DNA of 64,000 bases from Liolophura sinensis (Eukaryota; Mollusca; Polyplacophora; Chitonida; Chitonidae): NCBI RefSeq assembly GCF_032854445.1, contig NC_088295.1:3166501-3230500 (forward strand). Direction: 5' to 3'. Position numbers and translations under genes: made by a program. Positions 6,336 through 38,230 of the stretch are shown in pieces. Numbering within the stretch: the stretch's first letter is position 1; every line of letters begins with the position of its first letter. The notes under the pieces are model-generated. The model had not been told where the DNA came from. It did no database searches and was given only the letters and a program-made list of their open reading frames with translations.

Positions 6336-6384
6336 AAGTGTACTTATACTTGCGAATGAATACATAACAGGAAACTAAAAACGA

Positions 6385-6540
6385 CAAGAAAAGTGTACAT
6401 TGATGGACGTGGAAGCATGTACTTACCTGTGACGTTCAAAGTTTGACACAATACAACGACAAGAGAAGTGTGCATTGGTGTACGTGCAAGCATGTACTTA
6501 CCTGTGACGTTCAAAGTTTGACCCAATACACCGGTGTTCA
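6385..6540 (-). repeat. Two-copy 75-bp repeat of an exon tail plus 5' splice site
   Basis: The block containing GTCAAACTTTGAACGTCACAG followed by GTAAGTACATGCTT occurs with its donor at 6496-6501 and again 75 bp further along the minus strand (donor at 6421-6426). Only a few substitutions separate the copies. The first copy is the end of the candidate exon at 6502-6555. Confidence 0.8.
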
Positions 6541-6555
6541 ACACCCCAAGCAATG
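6502..6555 (-). CDS. Candidate 54-nt exon of an unidentified minus-strand gene
   Basis: On the minus strand a pyrimidine-rich tract ending TGCGTCTGTTACAG is followed by 54 nt and then a consensus 5' splice site, CACAG|GTAAGTA. The interval is open in two frames (one reads LLGVLNTGVLGQTLNVTG, another WGVEHRCIGSNFERH), so the frame is undetermined. No partner exon was found on either side. The splice signals are strong; the coding status is a guess. The exon tail and donor are duplicated 75 bp downstream. Confidence 0.35.
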
Positions 6556-14600: not shown

Positions 14601-17600
14601 ACAGCTTTTGAAGTCAGTGCAACTTTTTCGAGCTTCCAATGAACAAAAACACTTCCTAACTTCATTATTTAACATACATCCGACATACCTTACCTACACC
14701 TGACAAACTATGCCCTTTTCTGACATAACTTACCTACACCTGACAAACTATGCCCTTTTCTGACATATCTTACCTACACCTGACTTACTATGCCCTTTTC
14801 TGACATAACTTACCTACACCTGACAAACTATGCCCATATCTGACATAACTTACCTACACCTGACAAACTATGCCCTTTTCTGACATAACTTACCTACACC
14901 TGACAAACCATGCCCATATCTGACATACCTTACCTACACCTGACAAACCATGCCCCATATCTTAACTCCACCTGACAAACCATGCTCCATATCTAGCTTA
15001 CAGTTACCTACACCTAACAAACCATGCTCCATATCTGACATACCTTAACTACACCTGACAAACTATGCCCTTTTCTGACATACCTTCCATACACTTGACA
15101 AACTGTGCTCATATCTGACATACCTTACCTATACCTGACAAACCATGCCTATACTTGACATACCTTACCTACACCTGACAAACCATGCCCATATCTGGCA
15201 TACCTTACCTACACCTGACAAACCATGCCCCATATGTTACCTACAATTGACAAACCATGCCCCATATTTGACATACCTTACCTATACCTAACAAACCATG
15301 CTCATATCTGGCATACCTTACCTATACCTGACAAATCATACCCACATCTGACATACCTTACCTACACCTGACAAACCATGCCCCATATTTGACATACCTT
15401 ACCTATACCTAACAAACCATGCCCATATCTGGCATACCTTACCTACACCTGACAAACCATGCCCCATATGTTACCTACAATTGACAAACCATGCCCCATA
15501 TTTGACATACCTTACCTATACCTAACAAACCATGCCCATATCTGGCATACCTTACCTACACCTGACAAACCATGCCCCATATGTTACCTACAATTGACAA
15601 ACCATGCCCCATATTTGACATACCTTACCTATACCTAACAAACCATGCTCATATCTGGCACACCTTACCTATACCTAACAAACCATGCCCATATCTGGCA
15701 TACCTTACCTACACCTGACAAACCATGCCCCATATGTTACCTACAATTGACAAACCATGCCCCATATTTGACATACCTTACCTATACCTAACAAACCATG
15801 CCCATATCTGGCATACCTTACCTACACCTGACAAACCATGCCCCATATGTTACCTACAATTGACAAACCATGCCCCATATTTGACATACCTTACCTATAC
15901 CTAACAAACCATGCTCATATCTGGCATACCTTACCTACACCTGACAAATCATACCCACATCTGACATACCTTACCTACACCTGACAAACCATGCCCCATA
16001 TCTTACCTACAATTGACAAACCATGCCCCATATTTGACATACCTTTCCCACATGTACACCTGACAAACCATGCCTATATCTGACATACCTTACCCACATG
16101 TACACCTGACAAACCATGCCTATATCTGACATACCTTACCCACATGTACACCTGACAAACCATGCCAATATCTTAGATATCTTACCTACACCTGACAAAC
16201 CATGCCCATATCTGACATACATGTACCTTACCTACACCTGACAAATCATGCCCATATCTGACATACATGTACCTTACATATATCTACACCTGACAAACAG
16301 TTGAAGCCTTTAAGGCCTATGTGTACGCCAGACAAATTCTATTGAACACAGTATACCTCTATTTTATGCAATACACATTTCTCTAACCAAGAGTACCTGT
16401 CTTTGTAGACAAATTGTACCTCTATAGTGCCCTCTTACCTGTATCTAACAAAGAGCTGTCCGTTCACTGACAGCACCTCCCGTCTTAGAATGCTCCCGTA
16501 GGATGCCACCAAGTCCTCGAGCACCTGGAGGTCAGCACTAATCGGCAGCCCCTCTAGCTGGATCAGGTGTCCCTCCTTCATACTCCAGTTCATCTCACTT
16601 ATACATGAGTCTGGATATGTACTCCTCAGTCCTTGAACTGGAAGGATAACTCCCCTAGATGCCTCAGAGTTGTAACCAGCCAAATTAGCCACTGCTTCAC
16701 ACATGTCCTGGCCACTGAGGGAAACACCATCAATTGCTTCTGAGAGTTCCCCCTCTGTCATATCACTGAAGTCCTTAATCTCATGAATCGTTGCCTGTGT
16801 CACATCATCTACTTCAGCAGATTCACCCTCTGTCATATCACTGAAGTCCTTAATCTCATGAATCTTTGCCTGTGTCACATCATATACTTCAGCAGATTCA
16901 CCCTCTGTCATATCACTGAAGTCCTTAATCTCATGAATCGTTGCCTGTGTCACATCATCTACTTCAGCAGATTCACCCTCTGTCATATCACTGAAGTCCT
17001 TAATCTCATGAATCTTTGCCTGTGTCACATCATCTACTTCAGCAGATTCACCCTCTGTCATACCACTAAAGTTTTTAATCTCATGAATCTTTGCCTGAGT
17101 CACATCATCTACTTTGGCAGATTCACCCTCTGTCATATCACTGAAGTCCTTAATCTCATGAATCTTTGCCTGTGTCACATCATATACTTCGGCAGATTCA
17201 CCCTCTGTCATACCACTAAAGTCTTTAATCTCATGAATCTTTGCCTGAGTCACATCATCTACTTCGGCAGATTCACCCTCTGTCATACCATTAAAGTTTT
17301 TAATCTCATGAATCTTTCCTTTACTCATACCAACAGAGGTCAAAGGTTCACTGTGAGTGAGGTTATCTATACTCTCTGACTGTAGGTTTCTGGAGTTGCT
17401 GGAGAAATGTTTGTTGCTTCTATCAGCCACAGGTGTGACTGGTACAGGTAAGACCTCGGTATTTCCATGTGTTAAAACCTCCTCCTGATTGGTGCAGTGT
17501 GCTGTTGAAGTTTTTGGTATCTCCTTGTAGACATCCTTGATGTAACAGTTAGCATCTTCTAATGATTGTGTTTGCCCACTGGATCCATCACTTTTCAAAT

Positions 17601-20600
17601 ATTCACTGCATCCTTCACTTATTATATGTTCTCTGAATCCTTCAGTTGGTAAATGGTCACTGGATCCATCATGTTTAATTTGTTCGGCAGATGCTTCCCT
17701 TTTCAAAGATTTATTTAATCCTTCAGCCATTGTATACTGATTGCATCTTTCACTTCTCACATGTCCACTGGATCCTTCATTTCTCACATGTCCACTGGAT
17801 CCTTCACTTCTCACATGTCCACTGGATCCTTCACTTCTCACATGTCCACTGGATCCTTCACTTCTCACATGTCCACTGGATCTTTCACTTCTCACATGTC
17901 CACTGGATCTTTCACTTCTCACATGTCCACTGGATCCTTCACTTCTCACATGTCCACTGGATCCTTCACTTCTCACATGTCCACTGGATCTTTCACTTCC
18001 AGTATATTCATCTGATTTTTCACTCTTCACTTGATTTCTTGATTCTTCTCTTTCTACTTGTTCAACAGATTCTTCACTTCTCAATTGTTCACTGGATCCT
18101 TCACGTTTCACTTGTTCAATGGATTCTTCACACCTGCCATCATCAAGGGATTCTTCACTTCTCACATGTTCAATAGGTTCTTTATTTCTCACAAGCTTAC
18201 TGGATTCTTCATTTCTCACATGTTTACAAGGTTGATATCTAACATGTTCACTGTTTCCTTCACTTCCTACTTGTTCACTAGATCCTTCATTTCTCAAAGG
18301 CTCACTAGGTTCACATCTAACTTGTTCACTGGATCCTTCATTTCTGATCTGTTTGCTTGATCTTTCACTTTTCATATGTTCAAATTTATTTCTCAAATGT
18401 TCATTGGATCCTTCACTTTTCAAACATTCAAAGGGTCCTGCACTTCTCACACGTTTAATGGATCCTTTTTTTCTTACATGTCTGATGGTTCTGATCTTGG
18501 TCAGAAGTTTAAAGATTGGCTCATTTCTTTCATATCCTCTGGGTCTTTTAATACTCTTGAGTTTGTCAGATCTGTTCAGTTTAATGGAGCCTCCACATTT
18601 TACAGGTACACCGGATGCTTCCCTGATCCTACATTCCTTGGATCCTTCAGGCCTCACATCAGAATGTTCAGTTAATAATCTGGCCTTAGACAACTGACTG
18701 CATTTATTTGTCAATGGAAGGGATACTGACTGGCTAAAATGTGATGGGCACTGTTCACCAATCTGCACGGAATCCAGCCTGTCTGGAGGCCAAGTATTAC
18801 TGAATGTCTCGCCAATGCCACGGGAGGTAACCACTTCCTGTTCAGAACAGAGCTGAGTAAGACCTGAGTTATCTTCTATGAACGCCTCCTGACCAACCAG
18901 AGATAGCAAATCACAGTCAGCTCTGGCGGTCTCTGAGCTATTTTGTCTTTTCTGTGTTCTCTCCCTGTTGGACTGTGACGCATTGAGATGGAACTGAACT
19001 GTCCTGATGGCACTGTCTGAGAACAGACTGGTTTTCTCTATGTGAGTCACATCACTCACATCCCTCAGTGATGATATGCCAAACTCTGTGTTAAACTCTG
19101 GTAAAGTCTCAAAGCTGTTCACCGGTATGATGTCACCACAGTCTGAGGCACACATGCTGTCACTGTCCGACACGTACACAAAGCTGCTGGTGTCATCTGT
19201 ATCACCTGCCCTCGCCAGTGGTACTTGACTCAAGTCCAGCAGAGCCTGAGAGTGGTCACCCCCTGCACAGCAGTGAGGCGTGGGAGAGCTCTGTGAGCCC
19301 CGGACACTGTGTGCAGCATGTGAACTCAGAGTCCTCTTTATGTCACCACTGTTACTGGTCACGGAAGACTCCACTCTGTCATCACTCTCACTGGCATAAT
19401 CTAGGCCAGAGTTTTCTGATGTGAGCTGATCCTCAGAATCACACACACCTGGGTCAGTGTTCCTCGCCCTCTCTCTAGAACTTGGACGGCGTTTCTGTTG
19501 GCCAGGACGCCTCGGCTTACTAACTAGGGAAGCTGGTGTAGGAGAAAACTTTGCTCTTTTGTCTTGTCTGGAGCTTACTAAGGCAGGAAATTCAGTGAGG
19601 CTGTGGATGGCAACACAGGGTGCTGAGGCTGTACGTAGCATTCTATCACCGTTTCCAGATTCTACTTTAAAACCCTCTGTGGACACGGTCTGACTAGAGG
19701 ATGACAGTCGCTTCTCCTTCATCAGGTGTGCCTTTGGTGTGGCAGAGGCTGAACAAAAAAGAACAAAATGTCTTTGCGAAAAAATGTTACAAATGTGGAT
19801 AGAACAGATGTTTAATGAATACATTTGCACCAGAATTTGGTCTTTTCAGCTAACAAATGGGTCAACCTGGATTTTGATAATATTAATATTTTTAATACAT
19901 TCATAAATATTATCAAAATAAGTACAAAAGTGCAAAAAAGTGGTAAATATGGTATTCAATATTTGTGCCAATTGTTCTTTAAAGAGAAAAAGAACATGAA
20001 AATATTTTTTTGTATGGTGGGTATCTGGGACCATCTCTTGGTATATACTGTCTTTGTGAAATAATGTTTTAATTGTGGATAAAAACAGATGTTTAATAAA
20101 TATAGTTGCACCTGATTTTGTTTTTTTTCTGCTAATAAATGTGTTCAACCTGGATTTTGATCATATTTTTCATATATTTTAAATATATTCATAAATATTA
20201 TCATACTTCAGAGTAAATGCATTTGCTTGTGTTTAAATAACAAATTTACATTCAAATACATTTATTGGTCATGCACCACATCCTTATTTCAAACACTATT
20301 ATGCAAAGAGTATATATACCAAATATCTTCAAATACCCTTTTCTTCTGAAAGAAAAATCTAAAAAAAAAAGCATTAAATTTGCAAGTAAGTTTTCACGAT
20401 CTTTCATCTCATTTTGATATCATTTCTATGTTTTCTTTTCTTTAGAGCAAAGAAAACAGGACAGTTGGCCAAGGGTCAGTATAAAGTGACTGGGTGGGGG
20501 TGACATGTCTGGTGTCTTTGGCATGATACTCCAGTGGCAGCAGTGCTTTGGTGTCATGGTCTCGCCCCTGCCACAAGAAGACACAGCATATGTAGACATA

Positions 20601-23600
20601 TCTAATAAATCCTCATCATCACATGGCTGTAAACAAGGTGAAGTACGATGTAAAACTCTGTGCATGCAGACAAATATGCATCTGCTACTCACACAAGTGT
20701 ACATGTACACCTATACATGAATACGCTAATTCATTTATTTATGGATTGTTGTTTAATGCTTTTCACTATGATGGAGGTACAAAGTTTTAAGGATGTAGGA
20801 CATGCTAGAGTGAACAAACCACACACTTTTGGCAGGTTACCAATGTAGTTCTGATGTACAGATATACACACCATACTCGTGAAAGACAAGTGCTTTTCAA
20901 TCAATGTTATACAGCACAAACAGTCACACCGGCATCTTTGACCTTTTATTGTCACCAAAGCATCACATATTATAAGATTACAGGAATGTACAAATTCGCT
21001 ACTGTCCCATGGATAGGATTGAGCCCATACTTTGTGTGTCCCAGTAAGTGAAAGAAAGGCTATATTAAGGAGTTACATCTTCAAATACTCATTTCATCAC
21101 CTTGCTAAGTTCACTCCATGAACACATACATGTACCTGCTGTGATAATATACTGTATGAGACATATTCAAGAATAAATTCTATTCCATTTCATAAATACA
21201 TACATAAGCACAAACAAACGGTAACAATCATTGCTAGGCACTGAAACACAGCACAGTCTCTCACCGGCCTGGTCTTTGACGATTTCAGCTGGTTCAAACC
21301 TCCGGTTGTTGTACATCTAGGCTAACAGAGCAGAGGGAAATTCCTCGTGCCCTGCCACGCCCTCTTCCAGTAGCACCTGTCCTCCCCTGGGGCAGCTGAA
21401 ATAAAAACAGAGAACTTGTATCTGTATGAGGTTAAGAAAACACTTACAATGCGACATGCCTAGATCCAACTTCACTCTATATCTGTTCATAAGGTCATGG
21501 TAATCAAGAAACATAAACCATCTTAAAATACTGAAGTTGTACACAAAGCCGAAGGCTTTGTACACGTACAAGGCAGACTTGTCTCCCGAGGATAATCTTA
21601 ACGCAGGCCATCCAACAAGCAGTGCCGGCTTAACAGCTGTAGGGCATGGTCCACGACATCTGGAACTGCCCTTTACATTCCCAATTTTCCCTCTCATGCT
21701 AATTTTGTCACAATAAGGCATCTCAGAGACACTGAAACACATCCCTTGATAAACCTATACTTATAAATCAGCAGGTAAAAAAAGCTGTGTACATATAGTT
21801 CCTATATACAGCCAGGGATCAATATACAAGTATATCTACTCAGTGAGGAGTCTTCTTTCTTTATAGACCACGCATCTGGGTTATACATTTGTCAGATTTA
21901 TTAGGCAGATGTCAAATATGAAATCTTTAAATAATCTGACTAGAGCTGGATTTGAACTGCCAACAGGAAAAGCATTAAATGCAGNNNNNNNNNNNNNNNN
22001 NNNNNNNNNNNNNNNNNNNNNNNNNNNNNNNNNNNNNNNNNNNNNNNNNNNNNNNNNNNNNNNNNNNNNNNNNNNNNNNNNNNNNNNNNNNNNNNNNNNN
22101 NNNNNNNNNNNNNNNNNNNNNNNNNNNNNNNNNNNNNNNNNNNNNNNNNNNNNNNNNNNNNNNNNNNNNNNNNNNNNNNNNNNNTAGACAAATTGTACCT
22201 CTATAGTGCCCTCTTACCTGTATCTAACAAAGAGCTGTTCGTTCACTGACAGCACCTCCCGTCTTAGAATGCTCCCGTAGGATGCCACCAAGTCCTCGAG
22301 CACCTGGAGGTCAGCACTAATCGGCAGCCCCTCTAGCTGGATCAGGTGTCCCTCCTTCATACTCCAGTTCATCTCACTTATACATGAGTCTGGATATGTA
22401 CTCCTCAGTCCTTGAACTGGAAGGATAACTCCCCTAGATGCCTCAGAGTTGTAACCAGCCAAATTAGCCACTGCTTCACACATGTCCTGGCCACTGAGGG
22501 AAACACCATCAATTGCTTCTGAGAGTTCCCCCTCTGTCATATCACTGAAGTCCTTAATCTCATGAATCGTTGCCTGTGTCACATCATCTACTTCGGCAGA
22601 TTCACCCTCTGTCATATCACTGAAGTCCTTAATCTCATGAATCTTTGCCTGTGTCACACCATCTACTTCGGCAGATTCACCCTCTGTCATATCACTGAAG
22701 TCCTTAATCTCATGAATCTTTGCCTGTGTCACATCATCTACTTCAGCAGATTCACCCTCTGTCATACCATTAAAGTCTTTAATCTCATGAATCTTTGCCT
22801 GTGTCACATCATCTACTTCGGCAGATTCACCCTCTGTCATACCACTAAAGTCTTCAATCTCATGAATCTTTGCCTGAGTCACACCATCTACTTCAGCAGA
22901 TTCACCCTCTGTCATACCACTAAAGTCTTTAATCTCATGAATCTTTGCCTGTGTCACATCATCTACTTCGGCAGATTCACCCTCTGTCATACCACTAAAG
23001 TCTTCAATCTCATGAATCTTTGCCTGAGTCACATCATCTACTTCGGCAGATTCACCCTCTGTCATACCACTAAAGTCTTCAATCTCATGAATCTTTGCCT
23101 GTGTCACATCATCTACTTCGGCAGATTCACCCTCTGTCATACCACTAAAGTCTTTAATGTCATGAATCTTTGCCTGTGTCACATCATCTACTTCGGCAGA
23201 TTCACCCTCTGTCATACCACTAAAGTCTTTAATCTCATGAATCTTTGCCTGAGTCACATCATCTACTTCGGCAGATTCACCCTCTGTCATACCATTAAAG
23301 TTTTTAATCTCATGAATCTTTCCTTTACTCATACCAACAGAGGTCAAAGGTTCACTGTGAGTGAGGTTATCTATACTCTCTGACTGTAGGTTTCTGGAGT
23401 TGCTGGAGGAATGTTTGTTGCTTCTATCAGCCACAGGTGTGACTGGTACAGGTAAGACCTCGGTATTTCCATGTGTTAAAACCTCCTCCTGATTGGTGCA
23501 GTGTGCTGTTGAAGTTTTTGGTATCTCCTTGTAGACATCCTTGATGCAACAGTTAGCATCTTCTAATGATTGTGTTTGCCCACTGGATCCATCACTTTTC

Positions 23601-26600
23601 AAATATTCACTACATCCTTCACTTATTATATGTTCTCTGAATCCTTCAGTTGGTAAATGGTCACTGGATCCATCATGTTTAACTTGTTCGGCAGATGCTT
23701 CCCTTTTCAAAGATTTATTTAATCCTTCAGCCATTGTATACTGATTGCATCTTTCACTTCTCACATGTCCACTGGATCCTTCACTTCTCACATGTCCACT
23801 GGATCCTTCACTTCTCACATGTCCACTGGATCTTTCATATCTCACATGTCCACTGGATCCTTCACTTCTCACATGTCCACTGGATCTTTCACTTCTCACA
23901 TGTCCACTGGATCCTTCACTTCTCACATGTCCACTGGATCCTTCACTTCTCACATGTCCACTGGATCCTTCACTTCTCACATGTCCACTGGATCCTTCAC
24001 TTCTCACATGTCCACTGGATCCTTCACTTCTCACATGTCCACTGGATCTTTCACTTCTCACATGTCCACTGGATCCTTCACTTCTCACATGTCCACTGGA
24101 TCTTTCACTTCTCACATGTCCACTGGATCTTTCACTTCCAGTATATTCATCTGATTTTTCACTTCTCATTTGTTCACTTGATTCTCCCCTTTCAGCTTGT
24201 TCAATGGATTCTTCACTCCTCACTTGATTTCTTGATTCTTCTCTTTCTACTTGTTCAATAGATTCTTCACTTCTCAATTGTTCACTGGATCCTTCACGTC
24301 TCACTTGTTCAATGGATTCTTCACACCTGCCATCATCAAGGGATTCTTCACTTCTCACATGTTCAATAGGTTCTTTATTTCTCACAAACTTACTGGATTC
24401 TTCATTTCTCACATGTTTACAAGGTTGATATCTAACATGTTCACTGTTTCCTTCACTTCCTACTTGTTCACTAGATACTTCACATCCTGCTTTTTCACTA
24501 GATCCTTCATTTCTCAAAGGCTCACTAGGTTCATATCTAACTTGTTCAATGGATCCTTCATTTCTGATCTGTTTGCTTGATCTTTCACTTTTCATATGTT
24601 CAAATTTATTTCTCAAATGTTCATTGGATCCTTCACTTTTCAAACATTCAAAGGGTCCTGCACTTCTCACACGTTTAATGGATCCTTTTTTTCTTACATG
24701 TCTGATGGTTCTGATCTTGGTCAGAAGTTTAAAGATTGGCTCATTTCTTTCATGTCCTCTGGGTCTTTTAATACTCTTGAGTTTGTCAGATCTGTTCAGT
24801 TTAATGGAGCCTCCACATTTTACAGGTACACCGGATGCTTCCCTGATCCTACATTCCTTGGATCCTTCAGGCCTCACATCAGAATGTTCAGTTAATAATC
24901 TGGCCTTAGACAACTGACTGCATTTATTTGTCAATGGAAGGGATACTGACTGGCTAAAATGTGACGGGCACTGTTCACCAATCTGCATGGAATCCAGCCT
25001 GTCTGGAGGCCAAGTATTACTGAATGTCTCGCCAATGCCACGGGAGGTAACCACTTCCTGTTCAGAACAGAGCTGAGTAAGACCTGAGTTATCTTCTATG
25101 AACGCCTCCTGACCAACCAGAGATAGCAAATCACAGTCAGCTCTGGCAGTCTCTGAGCTATTTTGTCTTTTCTGTGTTCTCTCCCTGTTGGACTGTGACG
25201 CATTGAGATGGAACTGAACTGTCCTGATGGCACTGTCTGAGAACAGACTGGTTTTCTCTATGTGAGTCACACCACTCACATCCCTCAGTGATGATATGCC
25301 AAACTCTGTGTTAAACTCTGGTAAAGTCTCAAAGCTGTTCACCTGTATGATGTCACCACAGTCTGAGGCACACATGCTGTCACTGTCCGACACGTACACA
25401 AAGCTGCTGGTGTCATCTGTATCACCTGCCCTCGCCAGTGGTACTTGACTCAAGTCCAGCAGAGCCTGAGAGTGGTCACCCCCTGCACAGCAGTGAGGCG
25501 TGGGAGAGCTCTGTGAGCCCCGGACACTGTGTGCAGCATGTGAACTCAGAGTCCTCTTTATGTCACCACTGTTACTGGTCACGGAAGACTCCAGGGATGT
25601 AGACTGCACTCTGTCATCACTCTCACTGGCATAATCTAGGCCAGAGTTTTCTGATGTGAGCTGATCCTCAGAATCACACACGCCTGGGTCAGTGTTCCTC
25701 GCCCTCTCTCTAGAACTTGGACGGCGTTTCTGTTGGCCAGGACGCCTCGGCTTACTAACTAGGGAAGCTGGTGTAGGAGAAAACTTTGCTCTTTTGTCTT
25801 GTCTGGAGTTTACTAAGGCAGGAAATTCAGTGAGGCTGTGGATGGCAACACAGGGTGCTGAGGCTGTACGTAGCATTCCATCACCGTTTCCAGATTCTAC
25901 TTTAAAACCCTCTGTGGACACGGTCTGACTAGAGGATGACAGTCGCTTCTCCTTCATCAGGTGTGCCTTTGGTGTGAGCAGAGGCTGACAAAGAAGAGCA
26001 AAGAAGTGGCTTAGGTGGTGGCAGAGGCTGAACAAAAAAGAACAAAATGTCTTTGCGAAAAAATGTTACAAATATGGATAGAACAGATGTTTAATGAATA
26101 CATTTGCACCAGAATTTGGTCTTTTCAGCTAACAAATGGGTCAACCTGGATTTTGATAATATTAATATTTTTAATACATTCATAAATATTATCAAAATAA
26201 GTACAAAAGTGCAAAAAGTGGTAAATATGGTATTCAATATTTGTGCCAATTGTTCTTTGAAGAGAAAAAGAACATGAAAATATTTTTTTGTATGGTGGGT
26301 ATCTGGGACCATCTCTTGGTATATACTGTCTTTGTGAAATAATGTTTTAATTGTGGATAAAACAGATGTTTAATAAATATAGTTGCACCTGATTTTGTTT
26401 TTTTCTGCTAATAAATGTGTTCAACCTGGATTTTGATCATATTTTTCATATATTTTAAATATATTCATAAATATTATCATACTTCAGAGTAAATGCATTT
26501 GTTTGTATTTAAATAACAAATTTACATTCAAATACATTTATTGGTCATGCACCACATCCTTATTTCAAACACTATTATGCAAAGAGTATATATACCAAAT

Positions 26601-29600
26601 ATCTTCAAATACCCTTTTCTTCTGAAAGAAAAATCCAAAAAAAAAAGCATTAAAGATCATATTTGCAAGTAAGTTTTCACGATCTTTCATCTCATTTTGA
26701 TATCATTTCTATGTTTTCTTTTCTTAAGAGCAAAGAAAACAGGACAGTTGGCCAAGGGTCAGTATAAAGTGACTGGGTGGGGTGACATGTCTGGTGTCTT
26801 TGGCATGATACCCCAGTGGCAGCAGTGCTTTGGTGTCATGGTCTCGCCCTGCCACAAGAAGACACAGCATATGTAGACATATCTAATAAATCCTCATCAT
26901 CACATGGCTGTAAACAAGGTGAAGTACGATGTAAAACTCTGTGCATGCAGACAAATATGCATCTGCTACTCACACAAGTGTACATGTACGCCTATACATG
27001 AATACGCTAATTCATTTATTTATGGATTGTTGTTTAATGCTTTTCACTATGATGGAGGTACAAAGTTTTAAGGATGTAGGAAATGCTAGAGTGAACAAAC
27101 CTCACACTTTTGGCAGGTTACCAATGTAGTTCTGATGTACAGATATACACACCATACTCGTGAAAGACAAGTGCTTTTCAATCAATGTTATACAGCACAA
27201 ACAGTCACACCGGCATCTTTGACCTTTTATTGTCAGCAAAGCATCACATATAATAAGATTACAGGAATGTACAAATTCGCTACTGTCCCATGGATAGGAC
27301 TGAGCCCATACTTTGTGTGTCCCAGTAAGTGAAAGAAAGGCTATATTAAGGAGTTACATCTTCAAATACTCATTTCATCACCTTGCTAAGTTCACTCCAT
27401 GAACACATACATGTACCTGCTGTGATAATATACTGTACGAGACATATTCAAGAATAAATTCTATTCCATTTCATAAATACATACATAAGCACAAACAAAC
27501 GGTAACAATCATTGCTAGGCACTGAAACACAGCACAGTCTCTCACCGGCCTGGTCTTTGACGATTTCAGCTGGTTCAAACCTCCGGGTTGTTGTACATCT
27601 AGGCTAACAGAGCAGAGGGAAATTCCTCGTGCCCTGCCACGCCCTCTTCCAGTAGCACCTGTCCTCCCCTGGGGCAGCTGAAATAAAAACAGAGAACTTG
27701 TATCTGTATGAGGTTAAGAAAACACTTACAATGCGACATGCCTAGATCCAACTTCACTCTATATCTGTTCATAAGGTCATGGTAATCAAGAAACATAAAC
27801 CGTCTTAAAATACTGAAGTTGTACACAAAGCCGAAGTTTAACAAATTCACACCAGACTTATGCCTTTATCACAATAATTCATGTGAGACGTGCAAGTAGA
27901 GGTCCACTTAACCTATTCAATAAATCAGACCCTCTAGAGCACACAGACATGTGACAGATAATTTTAGCTGACAATTCCTAGTGTGGTGAAATCCAGGGAC
28001 CACTGCCTCACATCTGCAATCTCTTCATACACGTACAAGGCAGACTTGTCTCCCGAGGATAATCTTAACGCAGGCCATCCAACAAGCAGTGCCGGCTTAA
28101 CAGCTGTAGGGCATGGTCCACGACATCTGGAACTGCCCTTTACATTCCCAATTTTCCCTCTCATGCTAATTTTGTCACAATAAGGCATCTCAGAGACACT
28201 GAAACACATCCCTTGATAAACCTATACTTATAAATCAGCAGGTAAAAAAAGCTGTGTACATATAGTTCCTATATACAGCCAGGGATCAATATACAAGTAT
28301 ACTCAGTGAGGAGTCTTCTTTCTTTATAGACCACGCATCTGGGTTATACATTTGTCAAATTTATTAGGCAGATGTCAAATATGAAATCTTTAAATAATCT
28401 GACTAGAGCTGGATTTGAACTGCCAACAGGAAAAGCATTAAATGCAGCACGAAAAGCTGTCTATTTGGCTGACATCAAAGAGGCTGTGTTACATGAAGCT
28501 GTTTGTTCTCACCCTTCTGAGAGCTTGAGCTGCAATTATAGCCTTCCTGACCTGTACATCTGAACTGTCTGTGTCTTCATCTTCTCTAGCAGAATCACCC
28601 ATGTCAGAGCTGAACTGTTCTGCTGGATTATCTCCCCTTAATTCCTGTTCCTGCTTTAATTGCTCACACTGTTTCAGTTTGCTCTCTTCCTGTTCTCTCT
28701 CGCATTCCTCCTTTGCTCTCACACTCATCTCCAAAGCAAAAGGAGGAAGACTTGGAATCGGCCAATTTATACGCTCTCCTCGACCCATCATTGAAAAGTA
28801 ACAAACCTCATATTCAGGTTCTGCCAACTCTGGGAAGTACAGAAACTCTGCATACAATTTTTGTACATCATCCATTGTCATTATACCTGTGAAAAAATGA
28901 AATTTAAAATATTTAGTTACTCTTCTGCCATCGCATGTAATGTTCTTCACTATCTCAACAAACATTATCGTTTCCCGTAGGGACTTTTTACCCTATCAAT
29001 TCACCTATAACATACTTGGCACTTTATAGAAGGCAGTACTTGCTACAGACCACATTTCTGTCTGAGTCTCAACAGTAATCTAAACATACACATTTAACAG
29101 CTAAATTTCAGTCACAGACAGTAAGCCTATGCATACAATTGGAATGAGTGAGAAATTCAGAAAAAATAAAACTTGCAAGCTTGAACCGCAATAAAACAAC
29201 TACTCTCGGCAATAGTTCAATTAACTTAAACGTTCAGTTCTACGCTCAACAATTTCTGAAATCTGCCTGTCTCAGTACCAGGAATTGTTGAAAATAGTCC
29301 TTAACGTTTAATTTAATTGAACTAGCCCCTGCTAGTACTAAACACAGTGGGTTACATTCGGATAGCCACTAAGAAAGGACATAGATACTTCGCTGATCCT
29401 TTTTGTCTTGAATTTTAGCGTATATTATATAATCAAGACTTTGTAAACTAAAGACATTACAGTCTACAGTAAAAGTGAAACTAACACGAAAACTGAGCAT
29501 AGGATGATATAATATAACTGACCCTTCACTCATTTCTTAAAATGTGATGCTCGGTAATGCAATGACATCACTGCGGGCTTTATTCTCTGAAAGAACTTAC

Positions 29601-34261: not shown

Positions 34262-34539
34262 CTATAAAAGTGTCCTGTAAATGTCTGAATCAAATGCATA
34301 GAGCCCAAAATATTCGTCTCTTGTTCGATTCCGATGCCATTCTTCCAAGCAGCTGTAGGCAATTTGTCCGTAATCTTGTTCAAACTTGTTTGCGAAAAGT
34401 TGATTTGACTCAGCCATGTAATGAAGATCTCCCACGTTAAATATACAGATGCCTCTTTGCCATTTCCCATGACAGAGTGATGGGAACCATAGCTTGTATC
34501 GGGACATACTCGGTCTGTTTTCCATCTCCTCAAAGCTTC
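34262..34539 (-). CDS. Glycosyltransferase exon 3 (stop codon)
   Basis: The acceptor is TTTTTTTTGGCAG. The first two bases complete a Gly, then SFEEMENRPSMSRYKLWFPS, the conserved GICIFNVGDL and LFANKF blocks, and TAG at 34264-34262. Confidence 0.88.
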
Positions 34540-37500
34540 CTGCCAAAAAAAAACCATTCTCAGTGTAATCTGATTCCAATTTCATGTGACGCTAACTTCA
34601 AAGTCTGTCTCACATACAACATGAAAACTCCAATCTCATGTGACGCTAACTTCAAAGTCTGTCTCACATACAACATGAAAACCCTGCCAAACCAATTCAA
34701 TAACAATAAATACCCCCCCCCCCCACCCTCCCACATACAGAGTCAGTTACCGCAGCCAATATGTGAAAATGAGTTTCATTTTTTAGAAAATCGGGCTTGC
34801 ATTAATATTGACCAGATAACCCAAATTTTGACATTACATCTCTATATTCATATTATTAAGAGGCACATCAGTCCGTTTGGGACTTACATGCTTTAATACG
34901 CTTGGAGACACACCGTTGGAGTCCCCTCAGGGACATCCCCATAGTCGCAGAGGAATATCACATTGGGACTGCCAGATTGGGCTGGAGTGACTTACCTTTG
35001 CATCCACTCGGGGCTACCAGGTTGGGCTGGAGTGATGTCCTCCTGTATCCACTCGGGACTACCAGATTGGGACTGTAGTGACTTACCTCTGTATTCACCC
35101 GGGGCTACCAGATTGGGACTGTAGTGATTTACCTCTGTATCCACTCGGGGCTACCAGATTGGGACTGTAGTGACTTACCTCTGTATTCACCCGGGACTAC
35201 CAGATTGGGACTGTAGTGATTTACCTCTGTATCCACCCGGGGCTACCAGATTGGGACTGTAGTGATTTACCTCTGTATCCACCCGGGGCTACCAGATTGG
35301 GACTGTAGTGATTTACCTCTGTATCCACCCGGGGCTACCAGATTGGGACTGTAGTGACTTACCTCTGTATTCACCCGGGGCTACCAGATTGGGACTGTAG
35401 TGACTTACCTCTGTATTCACTCGGGACTACCAGATTGGGACTGTAGTGACTTACCTTTGCATCCACTCGGGGCTACCAGGTTGGGCTGGAGTGATGTCCT
35501 CCTGTATCCACTCGGGGCTACCAGATTGGGACTGTAGTGACTTACCTCTGTATTCACCCGGGGCTACCAGATTGGGACTGTAGTGATTTACCTCTGTATC
35601 CACTCGGGGCTACCAGATTGGGACTGTAGTGACTTACCTCTGTATTCACCCGGGGCTACCAGATTGGGACTGTAGTGATTTACCTCTGTATCCACTCGGG
35701 GCTACCAGATTGGGACTGTAGTGACTTACCTCTGTATTCACCCGGGGCTACCAGATTGGGACTGTAGTGATTTACCTCTGTATCCACTCGGGACTACCAG
35801 ATTGGGACTGTAGTGACTTACCTCTGTATTCACCCGGGGCTACCAGATTGGGACTGTAGTGATTTACCTCTGTATTCACCCGGGGCTACCAGATTGGGAC
35901 TGTAGTGATTTACCTCTGTATTCACCCGGGGCTACCAGGTTGGGCTGGAGTGATGTCCTCCTGTATCCACTCGGGACTACCAGATTGGGACTGTAGTGAC
36001 TTACCTCTGTATTCACCCGGGGCTACCAGATTGGGACTGTAGTGATTTACCTCTGTATCCACTCGGGGCTACCAGATTGGGACTGTAGTGACTTACCTCT
36101 GTATTCACCCGGGGCTACCAGATTGGGACTGTAGTGATTTACCTCTGTATCCACTCGGGGCTACCAGATTGGGACTGTAGTGATTTACCTCTGTATCCAC
36201 TCGGGGCTACCAGATTGGGACTGTAGTGACTTACCTCTGTATTCACCCGGGGCTACCAGATTGGGACTGTAGTGATTTACCTCTGTATCCACTCGGGACT
36301 ACCAGATTGGGACTGTAGTGACTTACCTCTGTATTCACCCGGGGCTACCAGATTGGGACTGTAGTGATTTACCTCTGTATCCACTCGGGGCTACCAGATT
36401 GGGACTGTAGTGACTTACCTCTGTATTCACCCGGGGCTACCAGATTGGGACTGTAGTGATTTACCTCTGTATCCACTCGGGACTACCAGATTGGGACTGT
36501 AGTGACTTACCTCTGTATTCACCCGGGGCTACCAGATTGGGACTGTAGTGACTTACCTCTGTATCCACTCGGGGCTACCAGATTGGGACTGTAGTGACTT
36601 ACCTCTGTATTCACCCGGGGCTACCAGATTGGGACTGTAGTGATTTACCTCTGTATCCACTCGGGGCTACCAGATTGGGACTGTAGTGATTTACCTCTGT
36701 ATCCACTCGGGACTACCAGATTGGGACTGTAGTGACTTACCTCTGTATTCACCCGGGGCTACTAGGTTGAGACTATAATGGCTAACCTCTCTATCCGCCC
36801 AGGACTGACAGACTGGGACTGTAGTCTTACCTCTGTATCCACCCAGTACACACACATACCAGGAGTGCCAGTTTGCCACAAGTGACTTACCTCTGTATCC
36901 ACCCGGGGCTGCCAGATTGGGACTGTAGTTGAGTGATGAAAAGAAGGTCTCATCTGGGACATAAGTTCCATTTAGCCAAAGGAGGAAATCTTGGGCCCGT
37001 TGGTCATTAGTGAGGAACTCCACAAATCCGCGAACTGCCGCTATGTGGACAGAGCCTTTTGTTAGGGTTATGCCGTGAGGGGCTGGCTCTCGGGACAAGG
37101 TACGATGGATATTCCTCCTGTAGAACAGAGCACATCAGCTTAGTACTAGGGTAACCACTTACTACGCAAGAGAAACCTCTCTGGCTCAGGTGGCTATGGC
37201 GGTGGCTTGCTGTGACAACCGGGTTCCTAAATTTTCGTGTTCGAATCTCGCTGCTTTGACTGACTAGCTTGTCATGAACCTGGCGAAGGTTAGTGATTTG
37301 TTCGAGTCACCACGGTTTCCTGTACCCATAAACCTGAACGTTGTCATATATTTGAAGTGAAAAATTATCGTCACTTGAGTCTCTAAAGGTTTAATTAGTT
37401 CACTGATACTAATAATATGGATTATCTTACCGCTTTAGGGAGCCTTGAATATCGTTTGCACCTTCAAACCTTTTGAGGATTTTTACAAGCTGCAGGTTTG

Positions 37501-38230
37501 TTTTTATCGGAAATTCCTGACCAGTCAGATTTATGAAGTATTTCCATCTATACTTCAGTAATTCCTTTATGCAAATCAGTTCAGCTTCGATGACGTTGAA
37601 AGCGCCCCATTCCACGTCAACTGAGGTCGGTGCAATGAAGACGTTATCAAAGCAATATACTATATTCTCAAGATGGTTGTTAAAGTCCAGGTTCGCTTTC
37701 TTGTCCACGTGGAAACAGTAGAAATTCTGCGGGCGATACACGGCACGGAGTAGCCGCTCCACTTGGACAATGTCCTTGTACACGAGAAGGCTGAAGGCGA
37801 TGGGAAAGTCTTTCTCCTCGCTCGTTAGGGTGTCAGTGATATAAGATCTGCGGCGAACAAACTCTGCACAGCTCTCTGCGACGTCCGCGAACACTGCTGT
37901 TGAGGTGAAGGAGAATATCTCAGGGTGACCAGCCATCATGGAATGAGCCCTGTCCAGTTCTCCTTCATCAGCCGCCATTAACTTTGAACAGCTGACACCA
38001 TGGACGGTTATATTTGAAAACGGCCACTGACTACCTGAAGAGTGTTTTGTGTCTTGTATAGAGTTCTCGTCCCAGGACAGTGATAGAATAACGAGTGACA
38101 CTGTAATATTACAGCCGAGAATGGCCGCTATCCCCCGCAGAGAGTAGGAACACATTGCAACAACTCCTCCTAGCGAGTACCAGCCTAAGCTATGCCCCAC
38201 AGCTGTCATTATTTCTTCTGTGAAATCCAT
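34262..38230 (-). CDS. Core-2-type beta-1,6-N-acetylglucosaminyltransferase (GT14)
   Basis: Three exons, 37431-38230, 36891-37117 and 34262-34539, join in phase to 434 residues. That is the usual length for the GCNT family of Golgi type II enzymes, which add beta-1,6-GlcNAc to make branched O-glycans. Seen: an N-terminal hydrophobic anchor (GIAAILGCNITVSLVILSL, about residues 34-52), a stem, IAFSLLVYKDIVQVERLLRA with FYCFHVDKKA, DVEWGAFNVIEAELICIKELL, NLTGQEFPIKTNLQLVKIL, PDETFF, and the C-terminal CHGKWQRGICIFNVGDL with LFANKF and CLEEWHRNRT. These match core-2 family blocks in order, including conserved cysteines. The first ATG gives a rather long cytoplasmic tail; an internal Met near residue 26 is an alternative start. 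Acceptor specificity cannot be told from sequence alone. Confidence 0.9.
34580..34681. repeat. Two-copy ~54-bp repeat
   Basis: TCATGTGACGCTAACTTCAA followed by GTCTGTCTCACATACAACAT occurs twice in tandem just upstream of the exon 3 acceptor. A C-rich run follows near 34710. Confidence 0.85.
34955..36928 (-). repeat. Tandem array J, 46-bp unit made of the exon 2 end plus its 5' splice site
   Basis: About 40 copies of a 46-bp unit. On the minus strand each unit is the exon 2 tail (TACAGTCCCAATCTGGTAGC, CCCGGGTGGATACAGAG) followed by GTAAGTCAC. The last copy is the real exon 2 end at 36891. Units often alternate between GTAAGT with TGAATACAGAG and GTAAAT with GAGTGGATACAGAG, giving a 92-bp higher-order repeat. 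The array occupies most of the 2.35-kb intron 2. Confidence 0.95.
36891..37117 (-). CDS. Glycosyltransferase exon 2
   Basis: The acceptor is TGTTCTACAG and the donor TACAGAG|GTAAGT. Seventy-five codons (RNIHRTLSREPAPHGITL through SPNLAAPGGYR) plus flanking partial codons. Its last 37 nt seed the tandem array in the following intron. Two further donors at 36825-36830 and 36735-36740 lie in the same phase and would add 20 or 50 codons without a stop. Confidence 0.88.
37171..37395 (+). mobile_element. tRNA-derived SINE in glycosyltransferase intron 1
   Basis: The A-box-like TGGCTCAGGTGG and B-box-like TGTTCGAATCTC are spaced as in a tRNA promoter. The 3' part (CACGGTTTCCTGTACCCATA, ATATTTGAAGTGAAAAAT) is shared in reverse complement with the elements at 29.8 and 63.8 kb. 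Confidence 0.75.
37431..38230 (-). CDS. Glycosyltransferase exon 1
   Basis: ATG at 38230-38228; ends AAAGCG|GTAAGA with two bases left over. It encodes the membrane anchor, stem and the N-terminal half of the catalytic domain through KRFEGANDIQGSLK. Confidence 0.88.

Follow-up and report, generated by a model that had tools for sequence, protein, structure and literature searches.

Minisatellites that copy an exon-intron junction are known from amphioxus as "mirages," and the original paper, on the Adh3 gene, reportedly appeared in Nucleic Acids Research in 2002. Such arrays have been described in Adh3, in the globin genes BflGb6 and BflGb9, in PGBD5 and in TnC (PMC3087553; for PGBD5, PMC3902484). 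According to these papers, they consist of intronic tandem copies of an exon-intron boundary that carry AG/GT signals, their interior units are homogenized and their edge units are not, and the normal gene product is apparently unaffected (PMC3087553, PMC3902484). In the open-licence literature, junction-copying repeats were found for amphioxus only and for no mollusc, which does not prove their absence from other animals.

The array described here lies in a chiton gene, within the 64,000-nt stretch of Liolophura sinensis DNA that was analyzed (the window). Its structure is not unprecedented, as the amphioxus mirages are of the same kind. The array is very probably a mirage in the same sense, i.e., a minisatellite whose founding unit was an exon-intron junction, which was seeded at random in an old intron and has been tolerated downstream of the first splice donor.

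Gene Structure and Predicted Product

The minus strand of the window carries a GCNT-type beta-1,6-GlcNAc-transferase gene with three coding exons and a 434-residue protein (Table 1; a slash marks the splice boundary). Exon 2 ends at base 36891 and intron 2 begins at base 36890. The annotated NCBI protein (P0121) is 100% identical to the model spliced at this first donor over all 350 query residues, and its N-terminus agrees with the translation of the window gene. The identity of the first-donor product with P0121 upholds the proposal, made in a sequence-only reading of this DNA, that the real junction at 36891 is itself the first repeat unit. The residues of P0121 across the exon 2/3 junction read GGYR-G-SFEEM, and the Pfam Branch domain (residues 144-384, profile positions 1-249 of 250) is intact across the spliced junction. 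P0121 also matches structures of core-2 beta-1,6-N-acetylglucosaminyltransferase (PDB 3otk, E 4.4e-59; 2gak, E 9e-59). Judged by its sequence, the product is a predicted enzyme of the GCNT family, a core-2 beta-1,6-GlcNAc transferase; an NCBIfam search with it assigned no family.

Table 1. Features of the GCNT-type gene and of the 46-bp array in its second intron (window coordinates).
Feature	Position	Strand	Description
Coding exon 1	37431..38230	minus	ATG to donor GCG/GTAAGA; Pfam Branch PF02485, E 1.2e-29; matches NCBI protein P0121 in its N-terminal portion
Intron 1	37118..37430	minus	313 nt; no array in the TRF listing
Exon 2	36891..37117	minus	227 nt; last ~38 nt are the exonic share of the repeat unit
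Intron 2	34540..36890	minus	2351 nt, ~80% array
Unit copy at the authentic exon 2/intron 2 boundary	36883..36928	minus	CTACAGTCCCAATCTGGCAGCCCCGGGTGGATACAGAG/GTAAGTCA; donor GAG/GTAAGT between 36891 and 36890
Three degenerate exon-proximal units	36733..36882	minus	First ~58 nt with an insertion, ends GTAAGA; second GTTAGC; third GTAAGT
Homogenized core of the 46-bp array	34955..36732	minus	Three composite 46+45-nt unit pairs, recurring at 459-bp spacing
Degenerate terminal part of the array	34955-34987	minus	Last ~33 nt; limit set by eye
Exon 3	34262..34539	minus	Acceptor TTTTTTTTTGGCAG/GAAGC; runs to the stop codon

Organization of the Array

TRF places an array with a period of 46 and 41.0 copies at 34965-36844. 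Its 46-bp unit comprises the last ~38 nt of exon 2 and the first ~8 nt of intron 2. An alignment of the junction with an intronic copy extends over 49 nt, from exon position -39 to intron position +10, with a score of 88, while the best of 200 shuffles reached 23; the earlier suggestion that the unit is made of the exon-2 end together with its splice donor was thereby confirmed.

The junction is separated from the homogeneous core by the three degenerate units (approximately 36882-36733). Twelve sequence types account for the 37 full 46-bp units, and the commonest of them (13 of 37) is only 2 of 46 positions away from the junction copy. Relative to the exon copy, 8/46 and 7/46 positions are changed in the exon-proximal full units and 2-4 in the interior units, with the exception of the three composite units (7-8 differences). 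The interior of the array is thus homogenized, its edges excluded. Divergence from the exon copy showed no trend along the array (Spearman -0.04, p 0.82; 38 rows, including the partial terminal unit), and none emerged after removal of the two exon-proximal rows (Spearman 0.10, p 0.57; partial terminal unit again included). The order of the units follows a higher-order period of ~10 units, or 459 bp, with an identity of 0.775 at lag 459 versus 0.678 at lag 413 and 0.728 at lag 505.

Two steps account for the array. The sequence shows that a stretch comprising the last ~38 nt of exon 2 and the first ~8 nt of an old, conserved intron was duplicated in tandem. Slippage or unequal exchange would then have expanded and homogenized the interior copies, with decay of the exon-proximal and distal edges; the divergence of the units and the 459-bp period point to such a process. 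That the copies were instead made or inflated by mis-assembly is scarcely credible. The assembly rests on only 14x HiFi coverage (PMC11068029), and the copy number could be off, but the HiFi reads average 8.3 kb (PMC11068029) and so exceed the 1.9 kb of the array, its full units are of a dozen different types, and shorter mirages occur at paralogues. A dispersed mobile repeat is not supported as the source of the array: when 431 bases covering array and junction were searched against the chiton genome at the DNA level, with very common words skipped, all 9 matches fell at this locus.

Several other repeats were noted in the window and beyond. At 6380-6555 on the minus strand, a 75-bp unit repeated once forms a possible second, two-copy mirage; here, the last ~29 nt of a candidate mini-exon of 54 nt at 6555-6502 (acceptor CTGTTACAG and donor CACAG/GTAAGT), its donor and ~46 intron nt would make up the unit. 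A 40-bp array of many units with TAG/GTAAGG-like donors (14678-16274, minus strand) starts ~165 nt past the donor at 16439 of a large ORF, and its match to the exon end of that ORF is weak (17/19 nt; 0/500 shuffles or p 0.01, depending on the scoring scheme). Two similar copies of a large, repeat-rich ORF, with 93-97% identity in the best aligned pieces, lie at 16406-20499 and 22185-26782; they contain 75-nt and 27-nt repeats and show weak Pfam matches under the curated cut-offs (DUF4107, DUF285). Contig C99 of the assembly holds seven COX1 copies at ~15.5-kb steps, resembling a concatemer of the mitochondrial genome, and another COX1 copy is found on C632. The best relatives of this COX1 come from chitons, at 94% and 93%.

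Donor Sites and Predicted Splicing

The sequence-only reading had also credited every unit with GTAAGT or GTAAAT, and the spliceosome with about 40 near-equivalent donors; both statements have to be corrected. The internal AG/GT hexamers of the array comprise 19 GTAAGT and 17 GTAAAT (36 such sites), one GTAAGA and one GTTAGC, and 3 of the 37 full units carry GGACAT at the donor position. According to a textbook donor matrix, GAG/GTAAGT scores 11.5 and GAG/GTAAAT 7.25, so that about half of the donors are much weaker, and several are lost altogether. By the same matrix, none of the 19 internal GTAAGT donors falls below the authentic donor, and 17 extra CGG/GTGAAT sites elsewhere in the unit, absent from the earlier reading, reach 7.0 and thereby approximately the level of GTAAAT.

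The outcome of splicing was computed for 38 donors, namely the authentic one and 37 internal ones, leaving out the GTTAGC and GTGAAT sites. The first donor yields the annotated protein. Use of the donors at 36831 and 36741 adds 60 and 150 in-frame nt, respectively, the donor at 36695 brings exon 3 out of frame, and 34 of the 38 donors, all of them internal, lead to a stop within the array. As 34 of the 37 internal donors meet such a stop, their frequent use would give mostly broken messages. Splicing at the first donor would remove the whole array and leave the protein intact, as suggested by the agreement of the spliced product with the annotated protein, and presumably takes place in this way in the RNA. 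Most internal donors would add array sequence with a computed stop, and the resulting frame-broken transcripts would probably be degraded. Together with the reports on amphioxus, the annotation points to the first donor as the dominant one. Extra copies that lie downstream of the original donor can therefore be tolerated.

The number of strong internal donors and the prevalence of stops behind them would also be expected if the internal sites were functional decoys or alternative donors that tune gene expression via unproductive splicing. Such a role is very unlikely, however, given that only one identical protein record was present among the best 120 of 977 hits, that amphioxus mirages are reported to leave splicing undisturbed (PMC3087553), and that a homogenized interior is typical of neutral tandem repeats.

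Lengthening of a Conserved Intron

The boundaries of ten three-exon PF02485 genes, the window gene and nine paralogues (C3a, C3b, C3c, C6, C1, C10a, C10b, C10c and C13), were compared, with paralogue boundaries placed by homology and splice-site match. Loci L009-L014, L016 and C4, in which exons 1 and 2 are contiguous, and L015 and L026, in which an exon-2 match is absent, were excluded from this test; L050-L052 enter the array table discussed below and stand outside the boundary test. By these homology-guided junction calls, 10/10 genes have an exon 2 of 227 nt and possess intron 2, whose length ranges from 133 to 9496 nt. Six annotated Liolophura proteins were compared with the called exon 2/3 junction, which is borne out by five of them (window gene, C1, C3a, C3b and C6). 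The sixth, P0130 of C13 (L042), is 20 residues longer there than the called boundary predicts, and the called C13 junction may therefore differ from the annotated one.

Six of the ten genes show no exon-end copy above the null; one of these introns is only 133 nt long, and some of them hold other arrays. Since the intron is common to all ten genes, including these six, it was lengthened by the array and not created by it. The earlier view that an intron had grown here by tandem duplication of a splice junction thus holds in the sense of lengthening only. A published model for such repeats goes further and has tandem duplication of an AG/GT proto-splice site turn exon sequence into a new intron (PMC3087553). 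For this locus it has next to no probability, because the junction calls give the same intron position in every gene, with or without copies. Intron gain by this route requires that the intron be absent in relatives without the duplication and was rejected on these grounds.

Recurrence at the Exon-2 Junction and Founding of the Array

Forty junctions of the ten genes were searched for copies that span the boundary with p <=0.005 and at least 4 nt on each side. Such copies were found at 4/10 exon-2 donors (window gene, C3a, C3b and C3c) versus 0/30 other junctions; a hand-computed Fisher test gives 0.002, 0.012 or 0.06 when four, three or two cases are counted. C3a (L038:8890-9040) exhibits a 51-bp mirage at its exon-2 junction, with three copies including the exon's own. 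C3b and C3c are nearly identical genes with degenerate exon-end copies at ~75-nt spacing, and their intronic copy 2 matches the C3a exon at 32/41 positions and their own exon at 28/41. In a tree that was midpoint-rooted for drawing, the window gene, C10a, C13, C10b and C10c are separated from the C3 genes, C6 and C1 with a support of 100/100, and the C3 genes group at 98/95. As junction arrays occur on both sides of the 100/100 split, at least two separate origins are probable, unless a single ancestral array was followed by many losses.

These counts bear on the question of whether the array was founded by chance. A hand estimate from array density predicts ~0.4 junction-spanning arrays in 40 junctions, and 4/10 versus 0/30 exceeds the prediction of random seeding unless the C3 genes represent one event. 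By the same estimate, two independent junction arrays (~p 0.07) are not decisive, while three or four would be. The main rival explanation holds that minisatellites of this genome arise preferentially where an exon ends in a donor, e.g., through co-transcriptional R-loops, pausing at donors or microhomology, and that mirages are consequently founded far above the rate of random seeding. Besides the concentration of copies at exon-2 donors with probably at least two independent origins, it can draw on exonic parts that begin within a few nt of the same codon and on possible short microhomologies at the founding breakpoints, placed by eye (ACT in the window gene, ACATT in C3a).

A sample of 50 arrays was compiled from the window (22 arrays) and 147 kb of paralogue regions, excluding overlapping TRF rows, units <20 nt and arrays with <2.8 copies; this sample is not independent, as the mirage arrays are part of it and eight of its rows belong to a single L051 repeat. 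No donor enrichment over a reversed matrix was found in it (10 versus 9 arrays at score >=7, 5 versus 7 at >=8 and 3 versus 5 at >=9). A genome-wide search for three AGGTAAGT at 38-66-bp steps likewise showed no enrichment of donors (623 matches versus 546 for the reversed motif), and a hand count limited to the first 100 places of each motif, which reach 82.52 Mb on C1, gave 19 distinct arrays with the donor motif and 17 with the reversed one. A general origin of this genome's arrays from donors was thus not seen in the 50 arrays or in the genome-wide motif count. Since donors are not enriched in arrays and two origins are not decisive, random seeding followed by tolerance is preferred, and a donor hotspot is considered unlikely. 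Under random seeding, the founding event would have been the ordinary birth of a minisatellite in a minisatellite-rich genome, with no process aimed at splice sites.

More tentatively, it is conceivable that the exon-2 end and donor of GCNT genes in this chiton lineage form a recurrent seed of junction minisatellites, that the resulting donor ladder amounts to a natural experiment on competing 5' splice sites, with the first of ~37 reliably chosen by the spliceosome, and that the C3b and C3c copies possibly retain an older version of the exon.

Comparison with Known Systems

The amphioxus mirages and the chiton array share a unit that spans a real exon-intron boundary, copied splice signals and a homogenized interior. 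They differ in host, a mollusc versus a cephalochordate, and in size, with ~41 copies in the chiton versus 6 in one BflGb6 haplotype and 3 in the other (PMC3087553). The chiton array copies the 3' end of an exon, whereas the amphioxus globin mirages are reported to involve both kinds of boundary (PMC3087553). Unlike in amphioxus, the same junction is affected in chiton paralogues on either side of a fully supported split. New with respect to the known mirages are therefore the mollusc host, the long array and the recurrence at one junction.

The Rogers model of intron gain by duplication of an AG/GT proto-splice site, as cited in PMC3087553, resembles the present case in that duplication across AGGT supplies extra splice signals. 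In that model an intron is gained, whereas in the chiton a shared intron was lengthened and none was gained. Two claims that are often merged can thus be separated, as the duplication of a splice junction can make an existing intron longer and need not give rise to a new one. Compared with ordinary intronic minisatellites of the same genome, the 46-bp array has a similar unit length (22 filtered arrays in the window); among those of the window, copying of an exon end is a candidate feature only, in two arrays. These comparisons suggest that junction-copying minisatellites are not a peculiarity of amphioxus and can be expected wherever minisatellites are dense, and they present the array as a natural test of 5' splice-site choice by a spliceosome that is offered dozens of similar sites.
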